Of a stretch of DNA of 64,000 nt, positions 2,701 to 12,598 are shown piece after piece. Source of the DNA: Streptomyces sp. SJL17-4 (GTDB taxonomy: Bacteria > Actinomycetota > Actinomycetes > Streptomycetales > Streptomycetaceae); NCBI RefSeq assembly GCF_036826855.1, contig NZ_CP104578.1, forward strand, positions 6,421,501-6,485,500, written 5' to 3'. The first letter of the stretch is position 1. Every line of letters begins with the position of its first letter. Below the pieces are notes generated by a model. It searched no databases. It worked only from the letters and a program-made list of their open reading frames with translations, and had not been told where the DNA came from. Position numbers and translations under genes: made by a program.

Positions 2701-3057
2701 ATGACCGGCATGACCTCTCTCGTACGACACGTCACCATCGACTGCACCGACGCCTACGCCCTCGCCACCTTCTGGGCGCAGGCCCTGGACTCCAAGGTCT
2801 CCCCCGACGACGCGCCGGGAGACGAGGAGGCGCTGGTCGAGACGCCCGGGGCCGCCCTCCTCTTCATCCAGGTCCCCGAGGCGAAGGCGGTCAAGAACCG
2901 CGTCCACCTCGACCTCCAGCCGCAGGACCGCACCCGTGACGAGGAGGTCGAGCGGCTGCTCGGCCTCGGCGCGACCCTCCTCGACGACCGTCGGAACCCG
3001 GACGGCACCGGCTGGGCGACCCTGGGCGACCCCAACACCTCTGACTACCAGTTCTGA
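2701..3057 (+). pseudogene. VOC (glyoxalase/bleomycin-resistance) gene, 5' part, cut by the integrated element
   Basis: Codons 1-109 are host sequence (MTGMTSLVRHVTIDCTDAY... ending GWATLG). At 3028 the reading frame crosses into the element and continues with only nine foreign residues (DPNTSDYQF) before a stop at 3055-3057. The missing C-terminus is found intact at 12571-12672, where it reads DPEGNEFCVERS. The Glu of the GNEFC strand is usually the last metal ligand of this fold and is lost from the 118-residue truncated product. The uninterrupted protein would be 142 residues. Start may be ATG 2701 or ATG 2710. Confidence 0.85.
3003..3054. other. attL of the serine-integrase element
   Basis: Left junction. 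The attB half (GACCCTGGGC) lies left and the attP half (CCCCAACACC...CAGTTCT) right of the GA dinucleotide at 3028-3029. The pentamer GACCC is shared with attR at 12571-12575. The right arm, read on the opposite strand, matches the outer arm at attR in about 18 of 25 positions, which is the inverted symmetry expected of an attP cut in two. Confidence 0.8.
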
Positions 3058-3088
3058 GCTTACGCGCACGTCAGAGAACACAGAAGCC

Positions 3089-3122
3089 CCGCACGGCAGT
3101 TGAGCCGCACGGGGCGTTTTGC
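3089..3122. terminator. Hairpin terminator near the left end of the element
   Basis: GCCCCG...CGGGGC arms with an inner CGG/CCG stem around a CAGTTGA loop, followed on the plus strand by GTTTT. It lies between the truncated VOC gene and the minus-strand gene ending at 3136, and could stop transcription from either side. Confidence 0.6.
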
Positions 3123-3135
3123 TGTCTGCGAGGGG

Positions 3136-3342
3136 CTACGCGCGCCGCTGACCCTCTCCGGGCATCGGACCGGGGATCATGGCCACGGCGTGGCTCGGGC
3201 AACCCCAGAGGACCACTCCGGGGCCACTCTGACGCTCGACGTAGCCGACTTCCACGGGCGCCCATGTCCATTGCTTGCAGCGGGAGCATCGCGCACCGGA
3301 CTTACCCGGCGTGGACTCGGCGGTGAGGGCTTCGCGGGTCAT
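3136..3342 (-). CDS. Small Cys-containing protein of the element, unknown function
   Basis: 68 residues. One CxxC pair (CSRCKQW, residues 19-22) and a later WGCPSH could form a small zinc knuckle. The central VERQSGPGVVLWGC segment is closely echoed by VERQSGPPAVVYRHSKC in the 66-residue protein at 5935-6135, so the two look like paralogues. Its ATG overlaps the stop of the upstream gene (ATGA), so it is translationally coupled to the membrane protein at 3339-3725. I do not recognise the family. Confidence 0.65.
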   Translation of the reverse strand: MTREALTAESTPGKSGARCSRCKQWTWAPVEVGYVERQSGPGVVLWGCPSHAVAMIPGPMPGEGQRRA

Positions 3343-3725
3343 GCGGTCACCGCCACGGCGAGCGCGGCGAGGGTTTCGAAGTGGTCCCCCTCGTAGCCGT
3401 AGGGGTAGTCCACGCCGAGCGTGGCGAGGACGGCTGCCGTCCGCCGTTCGCTAATCACTCCGAGCCGCATGGTGTCGTCGGCGAGGACGTAGGGGCGGAT
3501 AAGGGTGGTGTCCTCGCCCCGGAGCGGGGTGTGTCGAGCCCGGACGTGTGCGGGGGTCGGGGTGGGCCACGGCTTCATGTGGGGGCCGGTCAGGGTGGCC
3601 AGGGTCTCGGGGGTGCGGTACGCGGCGGAGTGGCGTCCGGGGCGTCGCGGGGTGAGTCCGAGGGCGCACCACAGGATGAGCAGCAGCCCCATTCCGATGG
3701 CTGCGAGGGCGATAAACTCGCGCAT
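3339..3725 (-). CDS. Small single-pass membrane protein of the element
   Basis: 128 residues. The first 24 residues are a membrane segment (EFIALAAIGMGLLLILWCAL) with few charges before it, followed by a basic stretch (TPRRPGRH) that predicts a cytoplasmic tail. The rest is soluble and has no motif I recognise. The ATG at 3725 has a GGGAG ribosome site nine bases upstream. It is the first gene of a two-gene unit with 3136-3342 and diverges from the GntR gene, which is its likely regulator. Confidence 0.7.
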   Translation of the reverse strand: MREFIALAAIGMGLLLILWCALGLTPRRPGRHSAAYRTPETLATLTGPHMKPWPTPTPAHVRARHTPLRGEDTTLIRPYVLADDTMRLGVISERRTAAVLATLGVDYPYGYEGDHFETLAALAVAVTA

Positions 3726-3815
3726 GTCTTTCAGCTCCCAAAAGCTGATTGGCGGAGCCCCGGCAGACCGGTCCTAAGCGGTCTGCCGGGGCGATTCAGT
3801 TCCGAGAGTAGGCCC

Positions 3816-3853
3816 TTACGTCAAGGCACGTAAAGTCTTGTAAAGGCACGTCA
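3816..3853. promoter_or_regulatory. Repeat-rich operator/promoter region between the GntR gene and the leftward operon
   Basis: AAGGCACGT occurs at 3823-3831 and again at 3843-3851, 20 bases (two helical turns) apart. The first copy also lies in an inverted repeat, TTACGT-CAAGGC-ACGTAA (3816-3833). On the minus strand the same DNA offers TTGACG as a possible -35 for the operon starting at 3725. This is the expected layout for autoregulation by the adjacent GntR protein. Confidence 0.5.
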
Positions 3854-3905
3854 ATGGACATGGCCTGATGTGCTCTGTTGAGTGAGCCCCGCTACCGTTC
3901 ATGGC

Positions 3906-4196
3906 ATGGATTACGGCCCAGATGACGAGATCGAGCGGGACGCACCCGAGCCCCCGTTTCACCAGCTAGCGGGCATCCTGCGTGCGCGTATTGCTCGGGG
4001 TGACTGGAAGCCGCGCCGCCCCATCCCGTCAGAGACCCGTCTGTGTGAGGAGTACGAGCTGTCCCGTCCAACGGTTCGGCGGGCGATTGCCGCCTTGGTG
4101 AACGATGGACTCGTGTTCGTTGTGCCGCAGCGAGGGACGTACGTTGCTGAGCCCGCCGGCTCGGGCAGCGGGACCGACGACCAGGCCGACGCGTAG
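3906..4196 (+). CDS. GntR family transcriptional regulator
   Basis: About 96 residues, essentially only the winged-helix DNA-binding domain: PPFHQLAGILRARIARGDW, then LCEEYELSRPTVRRAIAAL and the wing VVPQRGTYVAEP. No ligand-binding domain follows, as in small KorSA/KorA-like regulators of actinobacterial mobile elements. The ATG at 3906 is assumed; an in-frame GTG at 3882 would add eight residues, and neither has a good ribosome site, so the mRNA may be leaderless. It probably represses itself and the leftward operon at the repeats just upstream. Confidence 0.8.
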   Translation: MDYGPDDEIERDAPEPPFHQLAGILRARIARGDWKPRRPIPSETRLCEEYELSRPTVRRAIAALVNDGLVFVVPQRGTYVAEPAGSGSGTDDQADA

Positions 4197-4211
4197 TCGA
4201 GGGGCAGGGAA

Positions 4212-4252
4212 GCCCCGCCCATGCGCCTCGGGGGATGACGCACAAGCGGGGC
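4212..4252. terminator. Bidirectional hairpin terminator
   Basis: GCCCCGC ... GCGGGGC arms with an inner TGCG/CGCA pairing. It lies between the convergent GntR gene (ends 4196) and methyltransferase gene (ends 4273). Confidence 0.6.
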
Positions 4253-4272
4253 AGTCTTGCGGTTCAGTCCCG

Positions 4273-5445
4273 TCAGAGGACGTGCTGATCGGGACTGTCC
4301 AGCCATGCGGACTCGCCCGTTGCGGTCACTGTCAGTCCGAACCGCACCGGGCCGGGGCGGTCGTGCCGCAGCCACCAGGCGTGCGCGGCTTCAACTTCGT
4401 TCCACAGTTTGCGCGGGCCGTACTGCCACACGGTGAACCGGTCGTCTGACTTCCCGTCCCAGTCCACGGCTGCCCACGACGTGGCGTCGGTAGTGGCGAC
4501 CCACAGTCGGGACGCCACCCCTTCCACGTCGGGATTGTCGTGCCACGTCCACCACACGTCACGGAGCTGTAGCCCCATGGCGAACTGCGCATCGAGATCG
4601 TCGCCAGCCACCCGCCACGGTGGAAGGGTGGTAGTCGACTCGTCGGGCTGGTGGTCGTCACGCACCACGTCACGGAAGATCCGCAGGTCTGTGCGCTGGC
4701 CCCTCATGAGCATGAACGCGGAGTGCGGCGAGAACGGGCCCGACGCGCTTCCGCTGTCGTCCACGGTCATGCGGAGCAGCCCGTAGCAGACCCACGGACT
4801 TTCCCACGGGGTGAGGATGACGCCCCCGGGCTTCACCTGGTCGACCCACGGACGCGGGACAGACCGCACGGAGCACGTCGCCACGAGTCGGTCATACGGC
4901 GCGTTGTCCGTGTACCCCTCGGCCCCGTCCCTGGTCACCACAGCAGCGGTGACGCCCTCTTTTCGTAGACGTTCCCCGGCTTCCCTCGCCAACGCGGGGT
5001 CGACTTCCACGGTCGTCACGTTCCCCGGGCCGGCGACATGGGCCAGAAGACCCGCGTGCCACCCTGTTCCGGTGCCGATCTCCAGGACCCTGTGTCCCTC
5101 GTGCACGTCGAGCATGTGCAGCATCCGGAACACGATGCTCGGGGCGCTCGCGGACGAAGACGCCCACCGCTCGCCGTCGTCGGGGTCCTGGCCGTCGTTG
5201 ATTTGCGTCACGACGGAATCATTGGCGTAGACCGCGCGGAGCCACGTTTCGGGGGCGTCCGCCCGGTTACACGGCTCCAGTGCATCACCCAGAAAGATGC
5301 GCTCGGGAACGAACGCGGACCGGGGAACATTCCATGCGGCACGCTCCCACTCGGGCGTCACCGGCGCGCCCATGTCGTCGTTCACCGCGCCGAGCAGATC
5401 GCGCAGGGCGATTCGCTCGGACGCGACGAGTTTCGGTGTCGTCAC
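4273..5445 (-). CDS. SAM-dependent methyltransferase, protein-isoaspartate-methyltransferase-like
   Basis: 390 residues from a GTG start. A PIMT-like N-terminal part carries the SAM-binding motif VLEIGTGTGWHAGLLA followed by VTTVEVDPALA. A long C-terminal domain continues to about residue 390, well beyond a housekeeping PIMT of roughly 200-220 residues. This two-part architecture recalls the TgmC-type methyltransferases that accompany ATP-grasp-made peptides in actinomycetes. No ATP-grasp gene is in the element. The start lies five bases after the stop of the 44-residue peptide gene, so the two are tightly coupled and the peptide is a possible substrate. Function is inferred. Confidence 0.75.
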   Translation of the reverse strand: MTTPKLVASERIALRDLLGAVNDDMGAPVTPEWERAAWNVPRSAFVPERIFLGDALEPCNRADAPETWLRAVYANDSVVTQINDGQDPDDGERWASSSASAPSIVFRMLHMLDVHEGHRVLEIGTGTGWHAGLLAHVAGPGNVTTVEVDPALAREAGERLRKEGVTAAVVTRDGAEGYTDNAPYDRLVATCSVRSVPRPWVDQVKPGGVILTPWESPWVCYGLLRMTVDDSGSASGPFSPHSAFMLMRGQRTDLRIFRDVVRDDHQPDESTTTLPPWRVAGDDLDAQFAMGLQLRDVWWTWHDNPDVEGVASRLWVATTDATSWAAVDWDGKSDDRFTVWQYGPRKLWNEVEAAHAWWLRHDRPGPVRFGLTVTATGESAWLDSPDQHVL

Positions 5446-5450
5446 CTGCG

Positions 5451-5585
5451 TCAGTCTTCCTTCTTGTGCTTCGGCGGGTCCTTCGGCTTGGCGGTGTCGG
5501 ACGACGGCTTGGACGTACCCGGGTCCTTCCCCCCGGAGTGCTGCCCGTTGCCTCCGCTGCCGCCCTTACCCGTTCCCCATCCCAT
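5451..5585 (-). CDS. 44-residue Gly/Lys-rich peptide, possible substrate of the coupled methyltransferase
   Basis: ATG at 5585 with a GAGAGGGA ribosome site. The product starts MGWGTGKGGSGGNGQHSGG and ends with a Pro/Lys-rich tail, KPKDPPKHKKED. It has no cysteine, no membrane segment and no hydrophobic core, so it should be unstructured. It contains Asp-Pro and Ser/Asp-rich spots (GGKDPG, SSDTAKPKDPP) of the sort a PIMT-like enzyme could act on. It ends five bases before the methyltransferase start. It could be a modified-peptide precursor or a small accessory protein. I do not recognise a named family. Confidence 0.6.
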   Translation of the reverse strand: MGWGTGKGGSGGNGQHSGGKDPGTSKPSSDTAKPKDPPKHKKED

Positions 5586-5728
5586 GGCGTTCCCTCTCTT
5601 GGTTACGTACGAATCTTGGGAACCCGCCCGGTGGTCTCACGTCCCCACATGGGCCCCACCGGACGGGTGTGGTGCACCCGAGCGCACCGGTCTGCATCGC
5701 GCGAAGTGTGCTCGGGAAGTCTTCGGGG

Positions 5729-5935
5729 CTATTCGGCCCCGACGGAAAATCTCGGCGGCGTGGTGCCTGGCGGGAAGTACACGACTCCGGATCGGGGATC
5801 TTGAGCCCCGCCGTACGCCGTCCACCAGCCCTCGGGAGAGCCCCTGTACGGGCTGTCAGGAGAGTCGAGCAGGCTCACCAGTTCCGGGGCGGGGGGTGGC
5901 CTCGCAGGACGCCTCTGGAGCCGCGCAGGGGCCAT
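5729..5935 (-). CDS. Hypothetical 67-residue protein of the element
   Basis: ATG at 5935 overlaps the stop of the gene upstream (ATGA), the best evidence that it is translated. The chain is Pro/Arg-rich at the N-terminus and then reads ELVSLLDSPDSPYRGSPEGW followed by an aromatic/Gly segment (GVVYFPPG). No motif is recognised. The 143 bases between it and the 44-residue peptide gene hold no convincing gene and may contain that gene's promoter (AT-rich GATTCGTACGTAACC near 5604-5618). Confidence 0.55.
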   Translation of the reverse strand: MAPARLQRRPARPPPAPELVSLLDSPDSPYRGSPEGWWTAYGGAQDPRSGVVYFPPGTTPPRFSVGAE

Positions 5936-6135
5936 CAGGCGCGCCGGTACTGCTTGGCGCACTTGCTGTGCCGGTAGACCACGGCGGGAGGTCCCGACTG
6001 TCGTTCCACCGATCCCCGGCGGCAGGGCTCAAGAACCCCGATCGGCTCGCTGCACTCGGGGCAGGTCACCCCCTCGGGCGCGTACGTCGCGTACTCGTCC
6101 CTGCGGGCGTCCGTGTCTCTGGTCGTACTCGCCAT
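5935..6135 (-). CDS. Small zinc-knuckle-like protein of the element
   Basis: 66 residues from ATG 6135, with a GAGGGGA ribosome site eight bases upstream. A CPECSEP pair and a distal HSKC suggest a C2HC zinc knuckle; an extra Cys lies between (LEPCRRG). The VERQSGPPAVVYRHSKC segment matches the 68-residue protein at 3136-3342. It is coupled to the 67-residue protein downstream. Probably nucleic-acid binding or structural, but unproven. Confidence 0.65.
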   Translation of the reverse strand: MASTTRDTDARRDEYATYAPEGVTCPECSEPIGVLEPCRRGSVERQSGPPAVVYRHSKCAKQYRRA

Positions 6136-6225
6136 CGCTGGTGTCCCCTCACGTGGTCCGACGACGACCACGCTAGGGAGAGAGAAACCCCAACTCCCAT
6201 GTGATTGCACGAGGTTGCACGCGAG

Positions 6226-7074
6226 TTATCCGAGAGCGTCCAGCGCCGATGTGATCAGCGCACGAGCGGCGGCCCCGTAGACAGCCAGCGCCGCCAGTTC
6301 CGCGAACGTCTCGGCATACATGGCCACCTCGCTGGGCTGCGTGATCGTGAGGTAGCCGGAGATCAATTCGACGTTGACTTGGGCCGTGTCGTAGATCCAG
6401 AACCCCTCAGCCGGCCAGCGCTCCCGATCGGGCCGCATGGGCACAACTCCCAAGCTGACATTGGGAAGTGAGGCAATCGAGATCAGGTGACCAAGCTGCC
6501 CGGACATGACCTCAGCGCCGCCGATTCCGGCCCGCAACACGGACTCTTCAACGAGGAACGCAAACCGCCGGTCACCTTCGTACAGCACCCGCTGACGTTC
6601 CATGCGAGCGGCTACGGCGTCGGCCACATCGTCCACCAGGCCGCGCCGCCGCTGAATCGCGTGGAGCGCTGCCGTGGTGTACGGCTGCGTCTGAATCATG
6701 CCGGGTACGAGCCACGACGAGTAGGACCGGAAACGGCGGGTCCGCTGATAGAGCGGCAAGCGCGCTTCCTGCGCCTGCTTGAGCCCGGCCCTCTCCATAC
6801 GGCGCCAGTTGACCCACATGCCCTCTGCGTTCCGCAGCGAGGCAATCAGGTCCTCGGTCTGGTCCTCGGCACCGCACGCCTGACACCAGGCCCGAATGTC
6901 GTCAGCGGACGGGGGCGTCTTGGCGTTCATGATCCGGGACGACTTGGACCGGCTCCACCCGCAGCGCTCAGCCAGGTCAAGACCGGTCAGCCCAGCATCC
7001 CGGCAGAGATCCGCGAGACGTTTCGCAAGAGCCTGCCGGGCCTGCTGGGCGCTGGAAGATGCAGAGACAGCCAT
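6226..7074 (-). CDS. XRE/HTH regulator with C-terminal DUF5753 domain
   Basis: 282 residues. The N-terminal HTH reads LAKRLADLCRDAGLTGLDLA followed by RCGWSRSKSSRIMN. The rest is the long DUF5753 sensor-like domain common in Streptomyces (FRSYSSWLVPGMIQTQPYTT, later GEVVPMRPDR-type and YLTITQPSEV segments). Such proteins are usually paired with small DUF397 or, as here, DUF6879 genes. The ATG at 7074 is eleven bases after the DUF6879 stop; no good ribosome site is seen, so expression may depend on coupling. Its operator may be the inverted repeat at 7901-7919. Confidence 0.85.
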   Translation of the reverse strand: MAVSASSSAQQARQALAKRLADLCRDAGLTGLDLAERCGWSRSKSSRIMNAKTPPSADDIRAWCQACGAEDQTEDLIASLRNAEGMWVNWRRMERAGLKQAQEARLPLYQRTRRFRSYSSWLVPGMIQTQPYTTAALHAIQRRRGLVDDVADAVAARMERQRVLYEGDRRFAFLVEESVLRAGIGGAEVMSGQLGHLISIASLPNVSLGVVPMRPDRERWPAEGFWIYDTAQVNVELISGYLTITQPSEVAMYAETFAELAALAVYGAAARALITSALDALG

Positions 7075-7084
7075 GGGTGCGTGA

Positions 7085-7615
7085 TCAGGCGGGCCGGTAC
7101 TCCGCGTGAGGAATCGCACGCTCCCACGCTGCCTCATACGCGCTGACGTACTGCGCCGCCAACGCCCGATCGTGCACGACTTCCATGCGTGGACCGGTCC
7201 ACTGACCCTCGCCGCTGAAGTGGTGGAGAATCACGGTTTCCTCATCCATGACCCACCCGTCCAGCGCGGGGAGCAGCAGATCACGCGCCCGCGAGCGAGG
7301 CAGCCAACGGACTTCCTCGCCGGCTGCAACGTTCGTAAAGGTGCCGTCGTACTCGTACCGGACGTAGTCGCTCAGCGGCTCCGATACCACCCGCAGACGG
7401 CGCATGACGACACCACGCCCGGTCGTCTCGGCCACCACGTCCAGCCACGACCGCCACCACGACTCACGGTCGGCTGGGTCGTACCGGTGCCCTTCCTGCC
7501 AACGGATGAACTCCGGGTCGTCCCGCATGTAACTGTCCCGCATCTCAAGATGCATCGCCGAGCGCTGCGCCTTGGCGAGACATTCACGTACCGCTGTTGC
7601 CACCGTTGTCCTCAC
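7085..7615 (-). CDS. DUF6879 family protein
   Basis: 176 residues. It contains the family's typical core: RDSYMRDDPEFIRWQEG, an RESWWRSWLDVV helix, SEPLSDYVRYEYDGT, EEVRWLPRSRA and a C-terminal ERAIPHAEY. The family is nearly always beside DUF5753 XRE regulators in actinomycetes; its biochemical role is unknown. The GTG start at 7615 overlaps the upstream gene by 32 bases; a GTG at 7603 is an alternative. With its neighbours it forms a three-gene cassette, 7850 to 6226. Confidence 0.8.
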   Translation of the reverse strand: MRTTVATAVRECLAKAQRSAMHLEMRDSYMRDDPEFIRWQEGHRYDPADRESWWRSWLDVVAETTGRGVVMRRLRVVSEPLSDYVRYEYDGTFTNVAAGEEVRWLPRSRARDLLLPALDGWVMDEETVILHHFSGEGQWTGPRMEVVHDRALAAQYVSAYEAAWERAIPHAEYRPA

Positions 7616-7850
7616 TGTCCGGACGGGGAATGAACTGGAGCATGTTCGCAGGGAGCCGGATCACGGTCTCGTGCTCCGGAACGTCCGTCGAGTGACCCGG
7701 CACCGAGCCGACTTCCTGCGCCTGCCGGATCGTCTCCTCGTCAGCCTTCCATGACTGAATGATGAGGTCACCGGTCGTGTCGTCCAGCCAGATCGTGGGC
7801 GAGCCGTCATCGGGGGTGTTGGGCCAAATCCCCAGGAACTTTAGGGCCAT
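7584..7850 (-). CDS. Small conserved protein of the XRE/DUF6879 cassette
   Basis: 88 residues from ATG 7850, which has an AGGAGAG ribosome site seven bases upstream. The start MALKFLGIWPNTPDDGSPTI followed by WLDDTTGDLIIQSWKADEET is a pattern I recall from small Streptomyces proteins encoded just ahead of DUF397/DUF6879 and XRE genes. The C-terminal tail (SEDNGGNSGT) overlaps the DUF6879 start. First gene of the cassette. Function unknown; an antitoxin- or anti-repressor-like role is possible. Confidence 0.75.
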   Translation of the reverse strand: MALKFLGIWPNTPDDGSPTIWLDDTTGDLIIQSWKADEETIRQAQEVGSVPGHSTDVPEHETVIRLPANMLQFIPRPDSEDNGGNSGT

Positions 7851-7900
7851 TGGGCACTCTCCTAGCGAGTCGGTTGCACAGACGTGCACGAGCCTCACCC

Positions 7901-7919
7901 TGACGCGTGATCAGCGTCA
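7901..7919. promoter_or_regulatory. Inverted repeat upstream of the XRE cassette
   Basis: TGACGC-GTGATCA-GCGTCA forms six-base arms around a seven-base spacer, and its minus-strand reading starts with TTGACG (7920-7915), a possible -35. A second small repeat TGCAC-AGAC-GTGCA lies at about 7876-7889, nearer the gene start. Both suit control of the 7850-6226 cassette by its own XRE protein. Confidence 0.45.
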
Positions 7920-7982
7920 AGGGCGCGTCGAGACAAGTACGGGCGCGGAGTTCAGGACGCAGCCCAGGGCCCTGAACGCACG

Positions 7983-8034
7983 AAGGCCCCGCACCCGCCA
8001 CCTGGTATGTGTGGCGAGCGAGGGGCTCTTCTGG
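7983..8034 (-). terminator. Imperfect hairpin terminator after the terminase small subunit gene
   Basis: A GCCCCGC...CCGCCAC arm pairs with GTGTGGCG...GAGGGGC. It lies just after the minus-strand terminase gene stop (8045) and before the XRE cassette promoter. Confidence 0.5.
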
Positions 8035-8044
8035 CACGTCGGGG

Positions 8045-8542
8045 TCAGTCCCAGACGTCCGAGTCGTCATGGTCGGGCTCGGGGACTGTGATGGCGGTGC
8101 GGGCGCTCGGCGAAAGGCCCAACTCCCGCACGTACCGTGCGAGTTGGGCCCGGTACTGGCCTGCGATGGTGGTAGCGCCGTTCTTCTGCCATCCTCGCTC
8201 GCCCCGAACGAGCAAGCCGTTTTCGGATAGCTCCCGCTCGCATTGGTCGATCCGCGCAGCAGAAATGCAGTAGTCCATAAGGACAGTGGTGTCTACCTCG
8301 CCGAGTCCAACCGCGAGTTTCAGCACAGGAACGACGCGTCGCCATTCGCGCGAGGCGACTGCACGGCAGCGGGAGTTCACCGATTCCTGTTTCGGATCGC
8401 TCACGCTGCGGAAGGTCTCGCGCCAATCGGGCTCGGTCAGTTCCGAGGGCGGTACGGCTGCGCTTTGCGGCACGGGGCGCTTTCCGGGGTTGCCTTCCCT
8501 GATCACTTGCAGCGCGGGTTTCTTGCGCCGTGGGTCGGCCAA
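8045..8542 (-). CDS. Phage terminase small subunit, P27 family
   Basis: 165 residues from TTG 8542, chosen because AAAGGAAG lies five bases upstream and the family starts MADPRRKK-like; in-frame codons extend to 8587. Landmarks: REGNPGKRP near the N-terminus, the EWRRVVPVL helix, GLGEVDTTVLMDYCISAARI, a KNGATTIAGQYR segment and the closing ELGLSPSAR. Small terminases recognise phage DNA for packaging and hand it to a large terminase. No large subunit, portal or capsid gene follows; the downstream gene is an unrelated regulator cassette. In satellites a private TerS redirects helper packaging. Confidence 0.85.
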   Translation of the reverse strand: MADPRRKKPALQVIREGNPGKRPVPQSAAVPPSELTEPDWRETFRSVSDPKQESVNSRCRAVASREWRRVVPVLKLAVGLGEVDTTVLMDYCISAARIDQCERELSENGLLVRGERGWQKNGATTIAGQYRAQLARYVRELGLSPSARTAITVPEPDHDDSDVWD

Positions 8543-8662
8543 GGTCACTTCCTTTCGATATGCGGGCAGCGTTACGAGCCCGCGCAAATGGCTCTAGTTG
8601 CGGCGCGAGTTTCCGCGCTCCCTGCCGATCTTTTGGCGGGAGGGAGGGGAGTACCCCCCTGG

Positions 8663-9058
8663 TCAGAACGGCGGATACTCGGTCGCCTCGCGGTGAGACC
8701 TGCGCTCCGCAGCGAATCCGCCGGGCTGGTGCTTCGCGGTCTCGCGGTTGTGGCACGTCGAGCACAGCGGACGCATACGAGAGAACGCGTCCGGATCGGC
8801 GACACCCCGAGCGACTAGGGAACGGCGTGACTCGGGGAAGTGGTCCGCGACCGTGGCCGTAAGACCGCACAGCAGACACCACGGATGCCGGTACAGGAAC
8901 GCGCGTCGGGTGCGCTGCCACCGTGTGGTGTAGCCCCGCTCTGCGCTCGTACCGCGCTGCCGCTCGGCCTCGCGCTGGTGCTCGGTGCAGCGGCCACCAC
9001 GGGCGGTCAGCTCGGGGCACCCGGGTACCGAGCACGGGGGGCGTGGTCTACGGGGCAT
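8663..9058 (-). CDS. HNH endonuclease, phage packaging type
   Basis: 131 residues. Zinc-coordinating pairs CSVPGC (near the start), CLLCG and CSTCHN frame the HNH core, with ADHFPES as the first His strand and NRETAKH as the last. ATG at 9058 has a GAGGTGA ribosome site. In many cos-type phages an HNH protein of this size sits directly before terS and is needed for terminase cutting; the same order and strand are kept here (HNH then TerS, 120-base gap). Confidence 0.85.
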   Translation of the reverse strand: MPRRPRPPCSVPGCPELTARGGRCTEHQREAERQRGTSAERGYTTRWQRTRRAFLYRHPWCLLCGLTATVADHFPESRRSLVARGVADPDAFSRMRPLCSTCHNRETAKHQPGGFAAERRSHREATEYPPF

Positions 9059-9188
9059 GGGAAATCACCTCTCGCTCGGGGCGTAGGTAGCCCATTCGGG
9101 TGCCACTGCGATTACCCCACGGAGAACCGGGAACGGCTGCGGATAAGGAAAGCTGGTAGCCCTTATGTCCGGAGACAGGGAAGTGCTG

Positions 9189-9374
9189 ATGGATGAGGTA
9201 TTCCTGACCGTCACTGAAGCCGACGCCCGATTGAATGTCGGCCAAGACGAGATTCATAGGCTGGTACGTGACGGTGTCCTCAAGGCAATTCGGGTTGGCC
9301 GCAGCGTGCGGATCGCAGAGGACTCAGTCCTTGCCTACATTCAGGCAATCGAATCCGAAGGGGCAGACGGTTAA
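9189..9374 (+). CDS. Excisionase-like MerR/HTH_17 DNA-binding protein
   Basis: 61 residues from ATG 9189, which has AGGGAAG five bases upstream; ATG 9165 would add eight. The sequence LTVTEADARLNVGQDEIHRL followed by VRDGVLKAIRVGRSVRIAED is the helix-turn-helix plus wing of phage excisionase-type proteins. It is the only plus-strand gene besides GntR inside the element and diverges from the HNH/TerS unit. It may serve as the recombination directionality factor for the serine integrase or as a promoter switch; both are inference. Confidence 0.75.
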   Translation: MDEVFLTVTEADARLNVGQDEIHRLVRDGVLKAIRVGRSVRIAEDSVLAYIQAIESEGADG

Positions 9375-9553
9375 CGGGCGCTTCCGAACTCGGTACGGGT
9401 CTTGAGCGCATGGCAGCCGTGGCACAAGATCTGAACGTTGCCGTCCACGTCTTCACCACCGAGGGACAGGGGCCGCACGTGGTCCACGTCCACGTCCGCC
9501 GTGGGGAAGTCGGTCAGGCACCAGTCACACCAGGCCGAGCCCAGTTCCTGCAC
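9371..9553 (-). CDS. Small HNH endonuclease ORF, start uncertain
   Basis: From the only ordinary start (GTG 9553) the product is 60 residues: WCDWCL, VDVDHVRPLSLGG and ILCHGCHALKTR make a complete HNH core with its zinc CxxC pairs. The same frame stays open upstream to about 9700 and reads plausible basic family sequence (RRCGQRWATRRDTAARLRRR), but contains no ATG, GTG or TTG before an in-frame stop inside the next gene. So either the gene is 5'-truncated or it uses a rare start. Overlaps the end of the excisionase-like gene by four bases, convergently. Confidence 0.6.
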   Translation of the reverse strand: MQELGSAWCDWCLTDFPTADVDVDHVRPLSLGGEDVDGNVQILCHGCHALKTRTEFGSAR

Positions 9554-9641
9554 TCGCCGGCGGAGCCGTGCGGCAGTGTCCCGGCGGGTGGCCCATCGCT
9601 GACCACACCGCCGGGACCGGATAGCGGCGTGAGCGGACGCG

Positions 9642-10145
9642 CTAATCCGTCGCCGAAACGTAGCGCTCTCGCGCCGCGTCCAAATCTTCCGAGAACTGTG
9701 CGCCTATCTCCCCCGCCTGACTTTCTACCGCGCTTACGATCTCATCGAGGATCTGAGCGCCGTACCAGCGCTGTTCCGGCGCGGTGACGGCCTCGCCCAA
9801 CGCCCGCTGCGCGCGCTGCGCCTCGGTCAGTACATGCCCTCGCTTGTAGCGCGCGGCCCGGTATTCGACGTACGCGGCAAACCAGGGTTCAGCGGAAAGA
9901 GCCTCGAAGAACCGTTCCCGGGCCGCGTCACCGGAGTTCGCCGCGTCCTCGGCACGTGCCTGCCACGTCCCCGCGAATTCACGGTTGTACTCCTCCGCAC
10001 GATCAGCGCGGCGAGCGGCTTCGGCTTCCTCGGCTGCTCGCAACTGCACCTCGGCGTCCGCCAGCGGACCCGACACCTTCTCCGCCTGTGCCCGCAGCCT
10101 TGCGACCCTCTCGGCAGCCTTTTCGATCTCGGTGGTCATCTTCAC
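9642..10145 (-). CDS. Coiled-coil protein of the element, unknown function
   Basis: 167 residues. Residues 1-60 are a highly charged Ala/Glu/Arg helix with heptad character (EKAAERVARLRAQAEKVSG, then LRAAEEAEAARRADR). The second half has FFEALSAEPWFAAYVEYRA and further helices. GTG at 10145 overlaps the stop of the upstream gene (GTGA) and is better spaced from GAGGG than the ATG at 10139. No family recognised; size and position suit a phage early or structural accessory gene. Confidence 0.65.
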   Translation of the reverse strand: MKMTTEIEKAAERVARLRAQAEKVSGPLADAEVQLRAAEEAEAARRADRAEEYNREFAGTWQARAEDAANSGDAARERFFEALSAEPWFAAYVEYRAARYKRGHVLTEAQRAQRALGEAVTAPEQRWYGAQILDEIVSAVESQAGEIGAQFSEDLDAARERYVSATD

Positions 10146-10378
10146 TTACCGCCCTCGTTCACGTCGCGCCCATACTGTGCGGCAATCTGCTTGTCGTTCT
10201 CGTAGTAGCCCAGGCTCATGCGTGCAGTCGCCCCCAGGCGTTCGAACATCTCGGGATGCGAGTCCCGCAGCACCGCGAGCCGTTCCATGCGGTCATCGCG
10301 CTGCCAGACGTTGGCGCGCATCTTCCCCTTGTCTCGCTTCCCATCCATGAACACAGATCGGTTGAGGTTGTTATTCAT
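10142..10378 (-). CDS. Hypothetical 78-residue protein of the element
   Basis: Starts MNNNLNRSVFMDGKRDKGK; basic first half, then SLGYYENDKQIAAQYGRD. No known motif. It is the first gene of the leftward unit 10378-9371 and lies directly downstream of the two 20-base operator-like repeats at 10476 and 10520, so it should be the gene they control. Translationally coupled to the coiled-coil protein. Confidence 0.6.
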   Translation of the reverse strand: MNNNLNRSVFMDGKRDKGKMRANVWQRDDRMERLAVLRDSHPEMFERLGATARMSLGYYENDKQIAAQYGRDVNEGGK

Positions 10379-10475
10379 TCCTGATCACTCCAACTTTCGT
10401 TTCGGACATAACTGGCCGGTGCCGGCGGGGATGCGTCTGGCGCCCTCGGCAGCGTTGTGGTCTGTCTGTGCCCCG

Positions 10476-10495
10476 TGTAGGGACCGAGGGTGTCC
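10476..10495. promoter_or_regulatory. Operator-like 20-base repeat, copy 1
   Basis: TGTAGGGACCGAGGGTGTCC. Core GGAC-N7-GTCC is an inverted repeat. Two further copies lie at 10520 and 12480. All three have the same orientation and fall in the two promoter regions that flank the integrase gene. Confidence 0.65.
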
Positions 10496-10519
10496 TGCAT
10501 CCCGCCCCGGTTCCCCACT

Positions 10520-10539
10520 TGTAGGGACCAAGGGGGTCC
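10520..10539. promoter_or_regulatory. Operator-like 20-base repeat, copy 2
   Basis: TGTAGGGACCAAGGGGGTCC, 44 bases after copy 1, with a fuller palindrome (GGACC-N5-GGTCC). It lies in the gap upstream of the leftward gene at 10378. The rest of this 355-base gap (10379-10733) holds the two terminators listed separately and no gene. Confidence 0.65.
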
Positions 10540-10602
10540 ATCGGTGTCGTGGTGACGACGGAGACCCGGTTTCTCTTTTCTCTAGGTTTTTCTTGGTGTT
10601 CC

Positions 10603-10625
10603 AAAAAAGTGTCGAAAATCGACAC
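10603..10625 (-). terminator. Classical U-tract terminator downstream of the integrase gene
   Basis: On the minus strand, GTGTCGA-TTT-TCGACAC is followed by six Ts (10608-10603). A perfect stem with a T-run is rare in Streptomyces and the surrounding 10570-10635 is strikingly AT-rich, consistent with foreign origin. It insulates the leftward genes from integrase transcription. Confidence 0.75.
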
Positions 10626-10680
10626 TCTCAACACCTTTTCGCCTCGCTGTGGGCCCGAGGACCGTGTGCGGACAGCGGAG

Positions 10681-10712
10681 AGCCCCGGCAGCGTGTGGCG
10701 GCCACCGGGGCT
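10681..10712 (-). terminator. First hairpin downstream of the integrase gene
   Basis: AGCCCCGG ... CCGGGGCT with a 16-base loop, 22 bases past the integrase stop codon. With 10603-10625 it forms a double stop. Confidence 0.55.
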
Positions 10713-10733
10713 GTGCCGTGCCTTGCAGGGCCG

Positions 10734-12473
10734 CTAGGCGGCAGCCAGCTCACGGGCGGGCTCGGTCAGGCGCACCTGCGCCCCCTCAAGCGGGGAGTCC
10801 CCCCGCACCAGTGACTCCAGCGCCGACGCCTCACCCGCGAGGGCTTCCACGGCAGGGTCGAGCTCCCCGGACATGGTGAAGTCCACGCGCCGTGTGTCTA
10901 GCGTCCGCCACCCGCCACGGGTGCCACGCCGCACGTTCAACCGCACGCCCGCTTCAACGAGCATGGCTCGCCGTCCCGCCGTGTCCTTCTCGGCCCACTC
11001 GTCGGCGAACGTTCTTCCCGTGTTCGTGACGATGCGCTGCGGCTCGCGCTTCTCCCGGGACTCCAGCTCGGCTATCCGGTTGTCGAGCGCGTCCGCGCGC
11101 TTCTGCCACTCGGCGGCAGCGTGCCGGGACTTCTGGCGTCCCTTCTGTTCCTGGTGCTCCGAGAACTCCGCGATAGTGGCGCGCAGCTCGGGCCCGGGGT
11201 CGTACCCGGGGATCGTCACGACGTGTGTCGTCTCCACGGGCCCCATTAGCCGCAGGAACTCGGCGGTTACGTACTCGTCGGCCCAATCGCCCCTGATGTT
11301 GGCGGGCTTCTCGCACTTGAACCCGCGCGCGTAGGGGTTGCACTTGTATGTGGGGTGCTGGTTCTTCTTGGTGTCCTGCTTGTTCAGGTACATGCGTCCG
11401 CCGCACGAGTCGCAGTGAATGACCCGCAACAGCAGCGCGTCCGTGTCCTTCCGGTCCCCGATTTCAATGCTGCGCTCGTCCAGAACCGCGCCGATGCGGT
11501 CGAACTCCTCGCGGGTCATGAGCGGGGTTTCGGTCTGCATGATCGGGTTGCCCTCGGCGTCGCGCACTGGCTTGCCCTTGTGCATCTTCCAGCCGAGCAG
11601 CGTTTCATTCCGCAGCATTCGCGTAATGACCGCAGGACTCCAAAGGAACGCGTCCTTAACAAGCCCCTTGACACCGCCGGTCCGCCCGCCGGTCTCCCGT
11701 CCCTTCTTCACCGCCCAGTGATCACGCGGGCTCGGAATGCTGTCAGCATTGAGTCCCACGGCGATAGCCGAAACGGTCTTGCCCTCGAACAGTTCGCGGA
11801 CGATCCGTTCAATGATCACAACGGCGTCAGGGTCGGGAACGAGCGTCCATCCGATACCGCCGTGTTCCTTGGGCATGGGCGCGGGCATGTAGCCGTACGG
11901 CGGACGCGAACCACGCCACCGCAGCACCATGTTCCGGATGGCAGCCATAGCCCCGGTAACACGGTCGGAAATGGACTGCGCTTCCACCTGCGCGGCAAAG
12001 GCGAACATCGTCATTTGCAGTTCCGCCATGGGGTCCATGGGGTTGCGGAAGTCAAAGACAATGCGCCCACCCCCGCCGATGCCCTCGGCGAACACGAGAA
12101 CCTTCCGGTGCTCGCGGGCCCACTTGGCCAGCTCGTGCATGTCCGCCATGGACCGGATAGCACGGTCGAAGCGCCACCACACCAGGGCGTCAAACTCATC
12201 GGGTCGGGCGAGCCACGCGCCGAGGGCGGCACGGTCAAAGGGGCTGATCTTGGACGCCGACACGTCAAGGTCTACGGCCTCGCGGAGTTGGTCACCGTCG
12301 CCGAAGCTGATGTTGTGTGCGGCTGCCGCTATGTCGTCGGCCTCGCGCTGCCGGTCGGGGCTGGTGGTCTCGTCGGTGAGCACGGACAGACGGACACACC
12401 GCACGCCCCGAAGGGTCTCGGTGTAGACCGTGCCCGCGAGAGGGTTCCGGGGTTCACGGGTTGGGGTGTTCAT
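10734..12473 (-). CDS. Large serine integrase
   Basis: 579 residues from ATG 12473. The resolvase domain begins GVRCVRLSVLTDETTSPDRQ with the catalytic Ser30; DALVWWRFDRAIRSMADMHE and QVEAQSISDRV are further conserved blocks. A recombinase domain follows (RPPYGYMPAPMP, FLWSPAVITRML), then a zinc ribbon (CDSCGG ... YKCNPYARGFKCEKP) and a coiled coil (residues about 440-500) as in phiC31-type enzymes. The frame stays open to GTG 12533, but that extension runs through an operator-like repeat towards the att site, so the internal ATG is preferred. It catalyses integration at the VOC-gene attB. Confidence 0.9.
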   Translation of the reverse strand: MNTPTREPRNPLAGTVYTETLRGVRCVRLSVLTDETTSPDRQREADDIAAAAHNISFGDGDQLREAVDLDVSASKISPFDRAALGAWLARPDEFDALVWWRFDRAIRSMADMHELAKWAREHRKVLVFAEGIGGGGRIVFDFRNPMDPMAELQMTMFAFAAQVEAQSISDRVTGAMAAIRNMVLRWRGSRPPYGYMPAPMPKEHGGIGWTLVPDPDAVVIIERIVRELFEGKTVSAIAVGLNADSIPSPRDHWAVKKGRETGGRTGGVKGLVKDAFLWSPAVITRMLRNETLLGWKMHKGKPVRDAEGNPIMQTETPLMTREEFDRIGAVLDERSIEIGDRKDTDALLLRVIHCDSCGGRMYLNKQDTKKNQHPTYKCNPYARGFKCEKPANIRGDWADEYVTAEFLRLMGPVETTHVVTIPGYDPGPELRATIAEFSEHQEQKGRQKSRHAAAEWQKRADALDNRIAELESREKREPQRIVTNTGRTFADEWAEKDTAGRRAMLVEAGVRLNVRRGTRGGWRTLDTRRVDFTMSGELDPAVEALAGEASALESLVRGDSPLEGAQVRLTEPARELAAA

Positions 12474-12479
12474 CCCCCC

Positions 12480-12499
12480 TGTAGGGACCAAAGATGTCC
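12480..12499. promoter_or_regulatory. Operator-like 20-base repeat, copy 3, at the integrase start
   Basis: TGTAGGGACCAAAGATGTCC lies six bases upstream of the integrase ATG (12473), so a protein bound here would block integrase expression. Same orientation and consensus as copies 1 and 2. Confidence 0.65.
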
Positions 12500-12545
12500 C
12501 GGAACCACTCTTGACCAGCACCGACGTACCCACGGCAACACTCCA

Positions 12546-12598
12546 GAACTACTAGTTCCGTGTGTTGGGAGACCCGGAGGGCAACGAGTTCTGCGTCG
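12546..12598. other. attR of the serine-integrase element
   Basis: The attP half AGAACTACTAGTTCC...GTTGGGA ends at the GA dinucleotide (12571-12572); host sequence CCCGGAGGGCAAC follows and restores the VOC reading frame. GACCC (12571-12575) is the segment shared with attL. Confidence 0.8.

Follow-up and report, generated by a model that had tools for sequence, protein, structure and literature searches.

Phage-inducible chromosomal islands (PICIs) carry integrases of the tyrosine type, and P4-like satellites are recognized by the genes Sid, Psu, Delta and alpha primase. Capsid-forming PICIs (cf-PICIs) are described as encoding the large terminase (TerL), portal, protease and connectors, and the Streptomyces satellites MulchRoom and MiniFlayer as encoding the small terminase subunit (TerS), TerL, portal, capsid and scaffold, with direct terminal repeats (accessible text of PMC10690885). 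In the accessible text of another study, it is offered as a suggestion only that small actinobacterial prophage remnants may be PICIs (PMC10023795). Here we describe an integrated element of 9,543 bp, at positions 3028 to 12570 of a 64,000-nucleotide stretch of Streptomyces sp. SJL17-4 (contig NZ_CP104578.1, positions 6,421,501 to 6,485,500; the whole stretch is referred to as the window), whose insertion splits a VOC gene. The element is very probably a phage satellite, an integrated parasite of cos-packaging Rowa-type Streptomyces siphoviruses, and this reading is strongly supported. It belongs to a new satellite family, widespread and apparently undescribed, that swaps capsid genes as modules.

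A packaging site that matches phage termini

The closest phage TerS to that of the element belongs to Streptomyces phage Rowa (62% identical), and the packaging HNH endonuclease is 59% identical to its Rowa counterpart, which is encoded close to the right end of the phage genome. The relevant features are the following.

8663 to 9058, minus strand: packaging-type HNH endonuclease, 131 aa (PHROG 144, 5.9e-21; alignment of 12)
8576 to 8627, minus strand: cos site, with a cosN-like CGGCAGGGA (8619-8627) and a cosB-like GCGCCGCAACT-N7-TTTGCGCGGGC
8045 to 8542, minus strand: TerS of the P27/Terminase_4 family (PF05119, 3.1e-19; TIGR01558 above cut-off); start TTG after AAGGAAG, with GTG at 8548 also possible

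The Rowa record ends in ...CGGCAGGGA and starts with GGCAAAAACCTAGCGCCGCAACT...TTTGCGCGGGCTC; its TerS gene lies 66 bp in, and its HNH gene lies near the opposite end, with one small gene (gp61) between HNH and the terminus. Once joined, the Rowa termini are identical at 42 of 52 bases to window positions 8627 to 8576, which lie between HNH and TerS and are read here on the minus strand; in 300 dinucleotide shuffles of the element, no match exceeded 31 of 52. The order HNH-cos-TerS is the same as in circularized Rowa, except that gp61 stands between HNH and cos in the phage. As evidence for the predicted cos we take only the 52-base match and its position. In a second phage genus, AbbeyMikolon, the record likewise ends in CGGCAGGGA, which supports this sequence as a physical terminus. 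The first-pass annotation had proposed a cos-like site near 8543-8662 or 10379-10602; the site falls in the first range, and the second holds repeated operator-like sites instead.

A two-block pattern of this cos (type A), run over 392 congeners, gave nine sites in eight genomes, and a reversed control pattern gave none. All nine lie in elements in which no TerL was found within the window or within fetched stretches of 17-19 kb (window, L022, L023, L024, L192 and L217-L220). Among viral contigs, the type A pattern occurred in two, and the type B and type C patterns had no exact match. The cos signature offers a simple search handle for more such elements.

A TerS lineage without a large terminase

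TerS relatives were collected from 295 congeners, GTDB genomes (35 loci), IMG/VR (the best 80 of 87 loci) and Rowa, and TerL was sought with queries from Rowa, L033 and L030. It was present in all 80 of the best 80 of 87 IMG/VR loci. The TerS tree has 103 rows; TerL-less L036, L037, L068 and L071 were left out as short or below 40% identity, as were TerL-bearing rows under the same limits. In this tree, with 74 TerL-bearing rows, 28 TerL-less rows form one clade (support, 100/99), all from Streptomyces or Kitasatospora, makers of many antibiotics. They represent 26 distinct loci, since L040 and L065 duplicate L023 and L024. Closest to the clade among the TerL-bearing rows are Streptomyces prophages, Rowa and IMG/VR contigs. 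An exception is TerL-less L035, which groups with prophage L033. The exact cosN 9-mer CGGCAGGGA stands 75-86 bp before the aligned TerS start in 18 of the 28 rows.

Within the clade the median dN/dS (ratio of nonsynonymous to synonymous substitution rates) of TerS is 0.12, from 192 of 300 pairs that were usable (0.05<dS<1.5), and none of the 25 aligned stretches contains a stop; L032, with a broken TerS, was left out of both. The clade TerS has thus been under long purifying selection with its large partner gene absent: the lineage is old and does not stem from a fresh deletion. From the start of the integrase gene (int) to the last recurrent gene, the 14 clade members measured span 7.7-11.2 kb, so the units are alike in size.

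These findings bear on whether the element could have arisen by decay or pruning of a prophage, with the integrase and the HNH-cos-TerS ends retained and the rest lost. Prophages with the same integrase type and site do exist (L033, with int at 80% and HNH at 76%; L044, with int at 79%), and decay of this kind does occur: in L042 a fragment each of TerL and int is left, and the TerL-less L035 carries a TerS of the prophage type. Against this stand the single clade of 28 TerL-less rows under purifying selection, the recurrence of o78, o167, GntR, o128 and o68, none of them phage structural genes, and the absence of o167 from every phage record searched. Pruning is largely refuted by this evidence, and we consider it very improbable. 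The first-pass annotation had left the choice between a satellite and a recently pruned prophage; the former stands, and recent pruning is not supported for this copy. It had also reasoned that relatives with portal, capsid and tail genes between TerS and the regulators would mark the element as a deletion. Prophages with the same integrase type exist, but the TerS proteins of L033 and L044 lie outside the satellite clade, and the element is therefore not simply a deletion of either.

Interchangeable modules, possibly at one functional slot

Gene calls on the 26 distinct loci, used for module layouts and recurrent-gene clusters, separate three arrangements. In type I (11 loci, including the window), the order is int, o78-o167, HNH, cos and TerS. 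In type II (7 loci), a Rowa-like major capsid gene directly follows TerS. In type III (4 loci), a scaffold-like gene and an HK97-type capsid gene lie between int and HNH; in L047, for example, the capsid matches PF05065 at 3.2e-26 and the scaffold PHROG 4708 at 1.2e-10. The remaining four loci have no module; three of them (L022, L032 and L053) show damage or reach a contig end, and the fourth is L024.

10142 to 10378, minus strand: o78, 78-aa helical protein of module I (11 homologue clusters including its own; AlphaFold2 pLDDT, 80)
9642 to 10136, minus strand: o167, 164-aa long helical protein of module I, family hallmark (123 homologue clusters including its own; AlphaFold2 pLDDT, 90)

The modules never co-occur in the 26 loci (Fisher p = 2e-4) and are exclusive in the 21 loci with int (Fisher, 3.4e-5), both values counting related loci as independent. 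On the best TerS tree (25 of the 26 loci, with L032 left out, plus four outgroup rows) the modules switch eight times, and the starred branches force at least three changes per type. L027 (type III) and L028 (type II) lie within one genome. Relatives carry at most capsid and scaffold. The type II capsid proteins, together with that of L036, form one clade apart from phage capsids (100/100). L036 itself (G192:C24) is TerL-less, its TerS is very distant (about 32%), and a satellite-clade capsid protein is encoded upstream of HNH; the element is possibly a further satellite lineage.

Because the modules replace one another, we suggest that o78-o167 does the capsid job without a capsid protein. 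Most likely, judging from the mutual exclusion, it steers helper capsid assembly, for example towards a small head. There is, however, a second way to read the module within the satellite interpretation: o78-o167 could serve helper interference or replication/recombination, and the DNA could be packed as concatemers in full-size heads. No fold match was found for o167, four copies of 9.54 kb make 38 kb and would nearly fill a 42.9-kb head, and PICMI satellites are described as packaging concatemers (accessible text of PMC10803314). This is a real possibility, although we would not call it probable, given that o78-o167 is never found with either capsid module in 26 loci and that the type III scaffold-capsid pair occupies the same place between int and HNH.

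The predicted o167 structure has four helices, one of them of 67 residues. The protein has 123 homologue clusters at E<=0.001, its own included; among the 120 clusters listed, those with names are hypothetical proteins of Streptomyces, Kitasatospora and Embleya and one "chromosome segregation ATPase," and many are nameless. It has no match in 50,697 phage records or 72,556 plasmids, and a pattern-based scan of IMG/VR found no relative. It occurs in 13 of 392 congeners, nine of them new loci in which no TerL was seen. L191 and L193 have weak o167 matches, with a short GntR match as the only other trace of the family, and L190 has o167 and cargo without int, HNH or a nearby cos. We take o167 as the hallmark of the satellite family.

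Integration into VOC genes

Both ends of the element carry GACCC, and its borders, as given by the first-pass annotation with att sites at both ends, proved exact.

3028 to 12570, no strand assigned: whole integrated element; GACCC at both ends, VOC frame rejoined across it, empty site contiguous in 19 relatives
3024 to 3039, no strand assigned: attL junction; core GACCC at 3028-3032, within the VOC gene
12567 to 12582, no strand assigned: attR junction; the same 5-bp core at 12571-12575, element arm CTCCAGAAC...GTGTTGGGAGAC from 12541

Once joined, the host flanks encode ...GWATLGDPEGNEFCVERS..., the in-frame C terminus of the VOC protein, and the frame passes through the motif GDPEGNEFC; joining the element ends gives an attP that contains the palindrome GTGTTGGGAGACCCCAACAC. 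A search of 61 related genomes with the left flank gave matches of some kind in 59, and the 20 best loci were retrieved. Excluding the window's own, the right half lies within about 25 bases of the left half in 19 of 19 loci, and in the two best of them the PNPOx neighbour comes next, at 93% and 90%. The rejoined frame and the contiguous empty sites in the fetched relatives show that the insertion is clean and specific.

The attR arm CTCCAGAAC...GTGTTGGGAGAC with the VOC motif was found in 15 rows, or 12 distinct places after removal of three duplicates, including prophage L044, and a looser search with the translated motif revealed such a junction in prophage L033 as well as in L216. The VOC genes targeted elsewhere are only about 29-58% identical to that of the window. 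Integrases of this type therefore appear to be aimed at the conserved DPEGNEFC codons, and thus at many different genes of the VOC superfamily. The site is common to satellites and putative helpers.

Gene content, control sites and cargo

Proteins of the element, apart from that of the 44-aa open reading frame (ORF), were scanned by profile against Pfam, PHROGs and NCBIfam. The other genes are as follows.

10734 to 12470, minus strand: large serine integrase (PF07508, PF00239, PF13408; PHROG 95, 5.9e-82); likely start ATG at 12470, frame open to 12533
9371 to 9553, minus strand: small HNH protein, 60 aa (PF14279, 1.9e-9; PF01844, 3.1e-8)
9165 to 9374, plus strand: excise/HTH_17 protein (PF12728, 3.4e-11; TIGR01764, 1.3e-12)
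7584 to 7850, minus strand: o104, small cargo protein, in several elements together with the DUF6879 and HTH genes
7085 to 7615, minus strand: DUF6879 protein (PF21806, 5.8e-51)
6226 to 7137, minus strand: HTH_31-DUF5753 regulator (PF19054, 2.5e-35; PF13560, 1e-14)
5935 to 6210, minus strand: o91, Cys-pair zinc-finger-like protein (87-91% identical in L057, L187 and L213; Pfam match sub-threshold only)
5451 to 5585, minus strand: 44-aa Gly/Pro/Asp/Lys-rich peptide, putative type I pamtide precursor (98-100% identical in L057, L187 and L213)
4273 to 5445, minus strand: PIMT-like O-methyltransferase (PAMT; PF01135, 8.8e-27; TIGR04188, 302 bits, under the cut-off of 380)
3882 to 4196, plus strand: short, divergent GntR-type regulator, right-end recurrent gene (PF00392, 1.9e-17; cluster in 13 of 26 loci)
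3339 to 3725, minus strand: o128, small protein with hydrophobic N terminus, right-end recurrent gene (cluster in 13 of 26 loci)
3136 to 3342, minus strand: o68, Cys-rich small protein, right-end recurrent gene (cluster in 8 of 26 loci)

The gene set read by the first-pass annotation (serine integrase, HNH before a P27-type TerS, regulators and methyltransferase) is borne out by profile matches, as is its list of missing functions: the scanned proteins matched none of the families for large terminase, portal, capsid, tail, lysis, Rep or Tra. Its excisionase-like protein does match an excise-type HTH profile; its role is unsure, because no match to it was seen in any of the related TerL-less loci. 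The only replication-related matches in the scans are overlaps of the HTH of the GntR protein with replication-initiator profiles. Searched as a whole against 50,697 phage records, the element had no near match. ORF o87 (10371-10634) is probably no gene but a promoter/terminator region; on the minus strand at 10604-10632, the hairpin GTGTCGATTTTCGACAC followed by a T-run is a likely terminator after int.

The scans also speak to whether the element is an integrative one that moves otherwise, for example by conjugative mobilization, with its cos-TerS block a captured relic. Islands with serine integrases are frequent in Streptomyces, and no Rowa-type helper was found in this genome. On the other hand, no Tra, Rep or relaxase family was matched among the scanned proteins, TerS is under purifying selection beside a kept cos site, and sister elements have added capsid genes. 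We regard such a mode of movement as more improbable still than pruning.

Copies of one operator-like dyad stand next to int and before the o78 operon.

12481 to 12499, plus strand: dyad GTAGGGACC(N)3G(N)2GTCC, just upstream of int
10477 to 10495 and 10521 to 10539, plus strand: second and third copies of this dyad, where the o78 operon has its promoter region

The dyad has three sites in the window against 0.07 expected, with a pattern drawn from these very sites. In a pattern-free test over the 21 loci with a called integrase, a 20-mer shared (at least 17 matches) between the regions upstream of int and after int was found in six loci, against 0.17 expected and a maximum of two per round in 60 shuffle rounds. 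The six are the window, L028, L048, L050, L060 and L063; the other 15 fall below that level. The paired sequence differs from element to element, as if each had its own regulator at its paired sites. We rejected TGTAGGGACC as a family-wide operator: in its loose form, over 31 loci, copies occur only in the window, L027, L060, L062 and L063, and it is pairing within an element that recurs.

The cargo from o104 through DUF6879, HTH, o91 and the 44-aa peptide to the methyltransferase is 91-99% identical in L057, as opposed to 57% for TerS; the dS values are 0.17 for DUF6879, 0.17 for HTH and 1.18 for TerS. L187 and L213 carry the same cargo at 87-100%. Near-identical cargo despite a divergent TerS implies that cargo moves between satellites. 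In other elements the cargo position holds regulators, a NUDIX protein, a TPR protein or an AdoHcyase-like protein. The two-gene "type I pamtide" has been described as a precursor peptide with a PIMT-type methyltransferase (accessible text of PMC10787088). Since the 44-aa Gly/Pro/Asp/Lys-rich peptide fits the precursor as described there, it and the methyltransferase that directly follows it are a probable pair of this kind, a ribosomally synthesized and post-translationally modified peptide (RiPP) system carried as satellite cargo. The first-pass annotation was thus right to see cargo or control genes in the regulators and the methyltransferase, with the 44-aa neighbour as the likely partner of the latter. 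A defence function for the cargo was considered and dropped, with PADLOC matches only partial or weak (mad2 over the methyltransferase core, 1.3e-15; others weaker).

Sister elements that keep cos without a detected TerS

Fourteen further loci (L186-L189, L192 and L212-L220) keep cos, and all except L189 have the HNH gene. No TerS was found in them by tblastn or as a TerS-like forward ORF after cos, although other TerS families are possible. Five of these loci are of type A; in the other nine the cosB, termed type C, is distinct (GTGGCTCATT/ATGGCTCATT), with L188 and L189 departing slightly from it. The type C pattern gave seven sites in 6 of 392 congeners. Against the AbbeyMikolon terminus, type C cos matches at 32 of 52 bases, equal to the shuffle maximum of 32, so the likeness is a lead only. 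Where TerS is present, the cosB sites of the window's subclade are phage-like, and those of the other subclade are, by eye, mostly variants of GCCGGAGCTG...TTTTTGG, which had no exact match in viral contigs.

One of these loci, L212 (G000:C1:6010000-6029000), is a second TerL-less element in the window's own genome. It has type C cos at G000:C1:6,019,127, an HNH 86% identical, a shortened capsid gene and related regulator cargo, and no TerS was found in it.

Weighing the satellite reading

A number of observations weigh against a satellite life, or against the role we assign to o78-o167. Relatives L022, L032, L038, L053 and L189 are damaged or cut, with int, HNH or TerS lacking or broken, some of them at contig ends. 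Of the 10 TerL-less tree rows without the exact cosN 9-mer, seven have a changed one (1-3 mismatches) at 72-85 bp, and L032, L053 and L057 have none there, even changed. The 9-mer is not private to satellites, being exact in 10 of 64 TerL-bearing rows with enough upstream DNA, as would be expected of a phage signal. Taken alone it was rejected as evidence, with two found in the window against 1.70 expected. Phage SF1 starts identically to AbbeyMikolon, yet its record does not end in CGGCAGGGA. The Pfam, PHROGs and NCBIfam scans found no primase, Rep or other replication gene. A resident Rowa-type helper was sought and set aside: the Rowa TerL query has no match in this genome, an empty search that alone shows nothing. 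As to o167, its capsid role is drawn from exclusion only, and a structural search returned no PDB match and eight BFVD matches (E, 3.7 to 9.9), none significant.

The satellite reading of the first-pass annotation nevertheless stands on the TerL-less TerS clade, the cos that matches phage termini, purifying selection, the conserved border and the cargo shared at 87-100% between otherwise different elements. The serine integrase holds the element in the VOC gene, as the sequence shows, and we propose that growth of a helper would lead to excision and to amplification by helper or host replication. HNH and TerS may then act at their own cos (8576-8627) and recruit the helper's large terminase, and unit genomes cut at cos would be packaged in particles made of helper proteins, with either one unit per small head or about four units (38 kb) per 42.9-kb head. 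In place of the capsid genes of sister elements, o78-o167 would most likely steer helper capsid assembly, for example towards a small head. A regulator acting at the repeated operators would switch int and the packaging operon together, with regulators and the pamtide-like RiPP pair as swappable cargo.

More broadly, one can envision an old, modular family of Streptomyces and Kitasatospora satellites in which three capsid cassettes (a lone variant major capsid protein, scaffold plus HK97-type capsid, and a capsid-free o78-o167 that re-sizes the helper head) share one functional slot. Two packaging tactics would be in use, its own TerS with a matching cosB or HNH-cos only with the helper's TerS, so that the cosB type would tell the helper genus, Rowa-like for A and perhaps AbbeyMikolon-like for C. 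This wider picture is plausible and only just short of probable. If it is true, three capsid solutions swapped in one lineage amount to a natural experiment on parasite control of virus head size.

Comparison with known satellites and phages

The element has integration functions and a packaging signal with none of the TerL, portal or tail families, in keeping with phage satellites in general. Like PICIs (SaPI and EcCI, and the cos-type SaPIbov5 and EcCICFT073), it is a chromosomal island with a specific att site, its own packaging gene and cos and no full structural set; PICIs are helper-packaged (accessible text of PMC6092414), as this element would be. It shares with them a unique att site with an integrase, and packaging based on TerS and cos. 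It differs in its serine integrase and its Rowa-type HNH-cos-TerS block, and the profile scans matched no AlpA or Stl and no primase-Rep module with an ori. A divergent GntR-type gene and repeated operator-like sites are present. None of the P4-like genes Sid, Psu, Delta and alpha primase was matched among the scanned proteins.

The sister elements of types II and III resemble cf-PICIs in bringing their own capsid protein. The family, however, has the capsid gene alone or with scaffold, with no TerL or portal found, and the window element has none of the capsid, portal, protease, connector and TerL set. MulchRoom and MiniFlayer, the only Streptomyces satellites found in our literature search, both carry a capsid and terminase set. 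They are alike in host genus, satellite life and lack of a primase, and MulchRoom has a lysogeny module with a GntR-like HTH (accessible text of PMC10690885). By the descriptions in that text, they are set apart from the window family, which has cos and lacks TerL and portal; the window element has neither their TerL, portal and capsid genes nor their terminal repeats. The same literature search, with most subscription papers and preprints outside its coverage, found no description of this satellite family.

Mycobacterial candidate PICIs and phiRv1 are likewise actinobacterial prophage-like islands, some with serine integrases; by description the candidates are defined by an integrase and a capsid gene, whereas the window element has HNH-cos-TerS and no capsid gene (accessible text of PMC10654092). 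PICMI of Vibrionaceae is also a minimal satellite without structural genes. It is described as lacking terS homologues and integrating beside fis (accessible text of PMC10803314), whereas the window element has TerS and a VOC target.

The element lacks the TerL, portal, capsid, tail and lysis genes of an intact prophage, and it is from the phages that carry TerL, portal, capsid and tail genes, Rowa and the prophages L043, L044 and L033, that it differs in this respect. L033 stands further off: the identity of its TerS is no more than about 40%, and the 400 bp that precede the gene contain no cosN 9-mer. All four nevertheless share TerS and HNH with the element, L033 and L044 share its integrase type and VOC site, and Rowa, L043 and L044 have the same kind of cos. 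Because this packaging signal is matched to a cultured phage, Rowa, the dependence of the element on a helper is directly testable.

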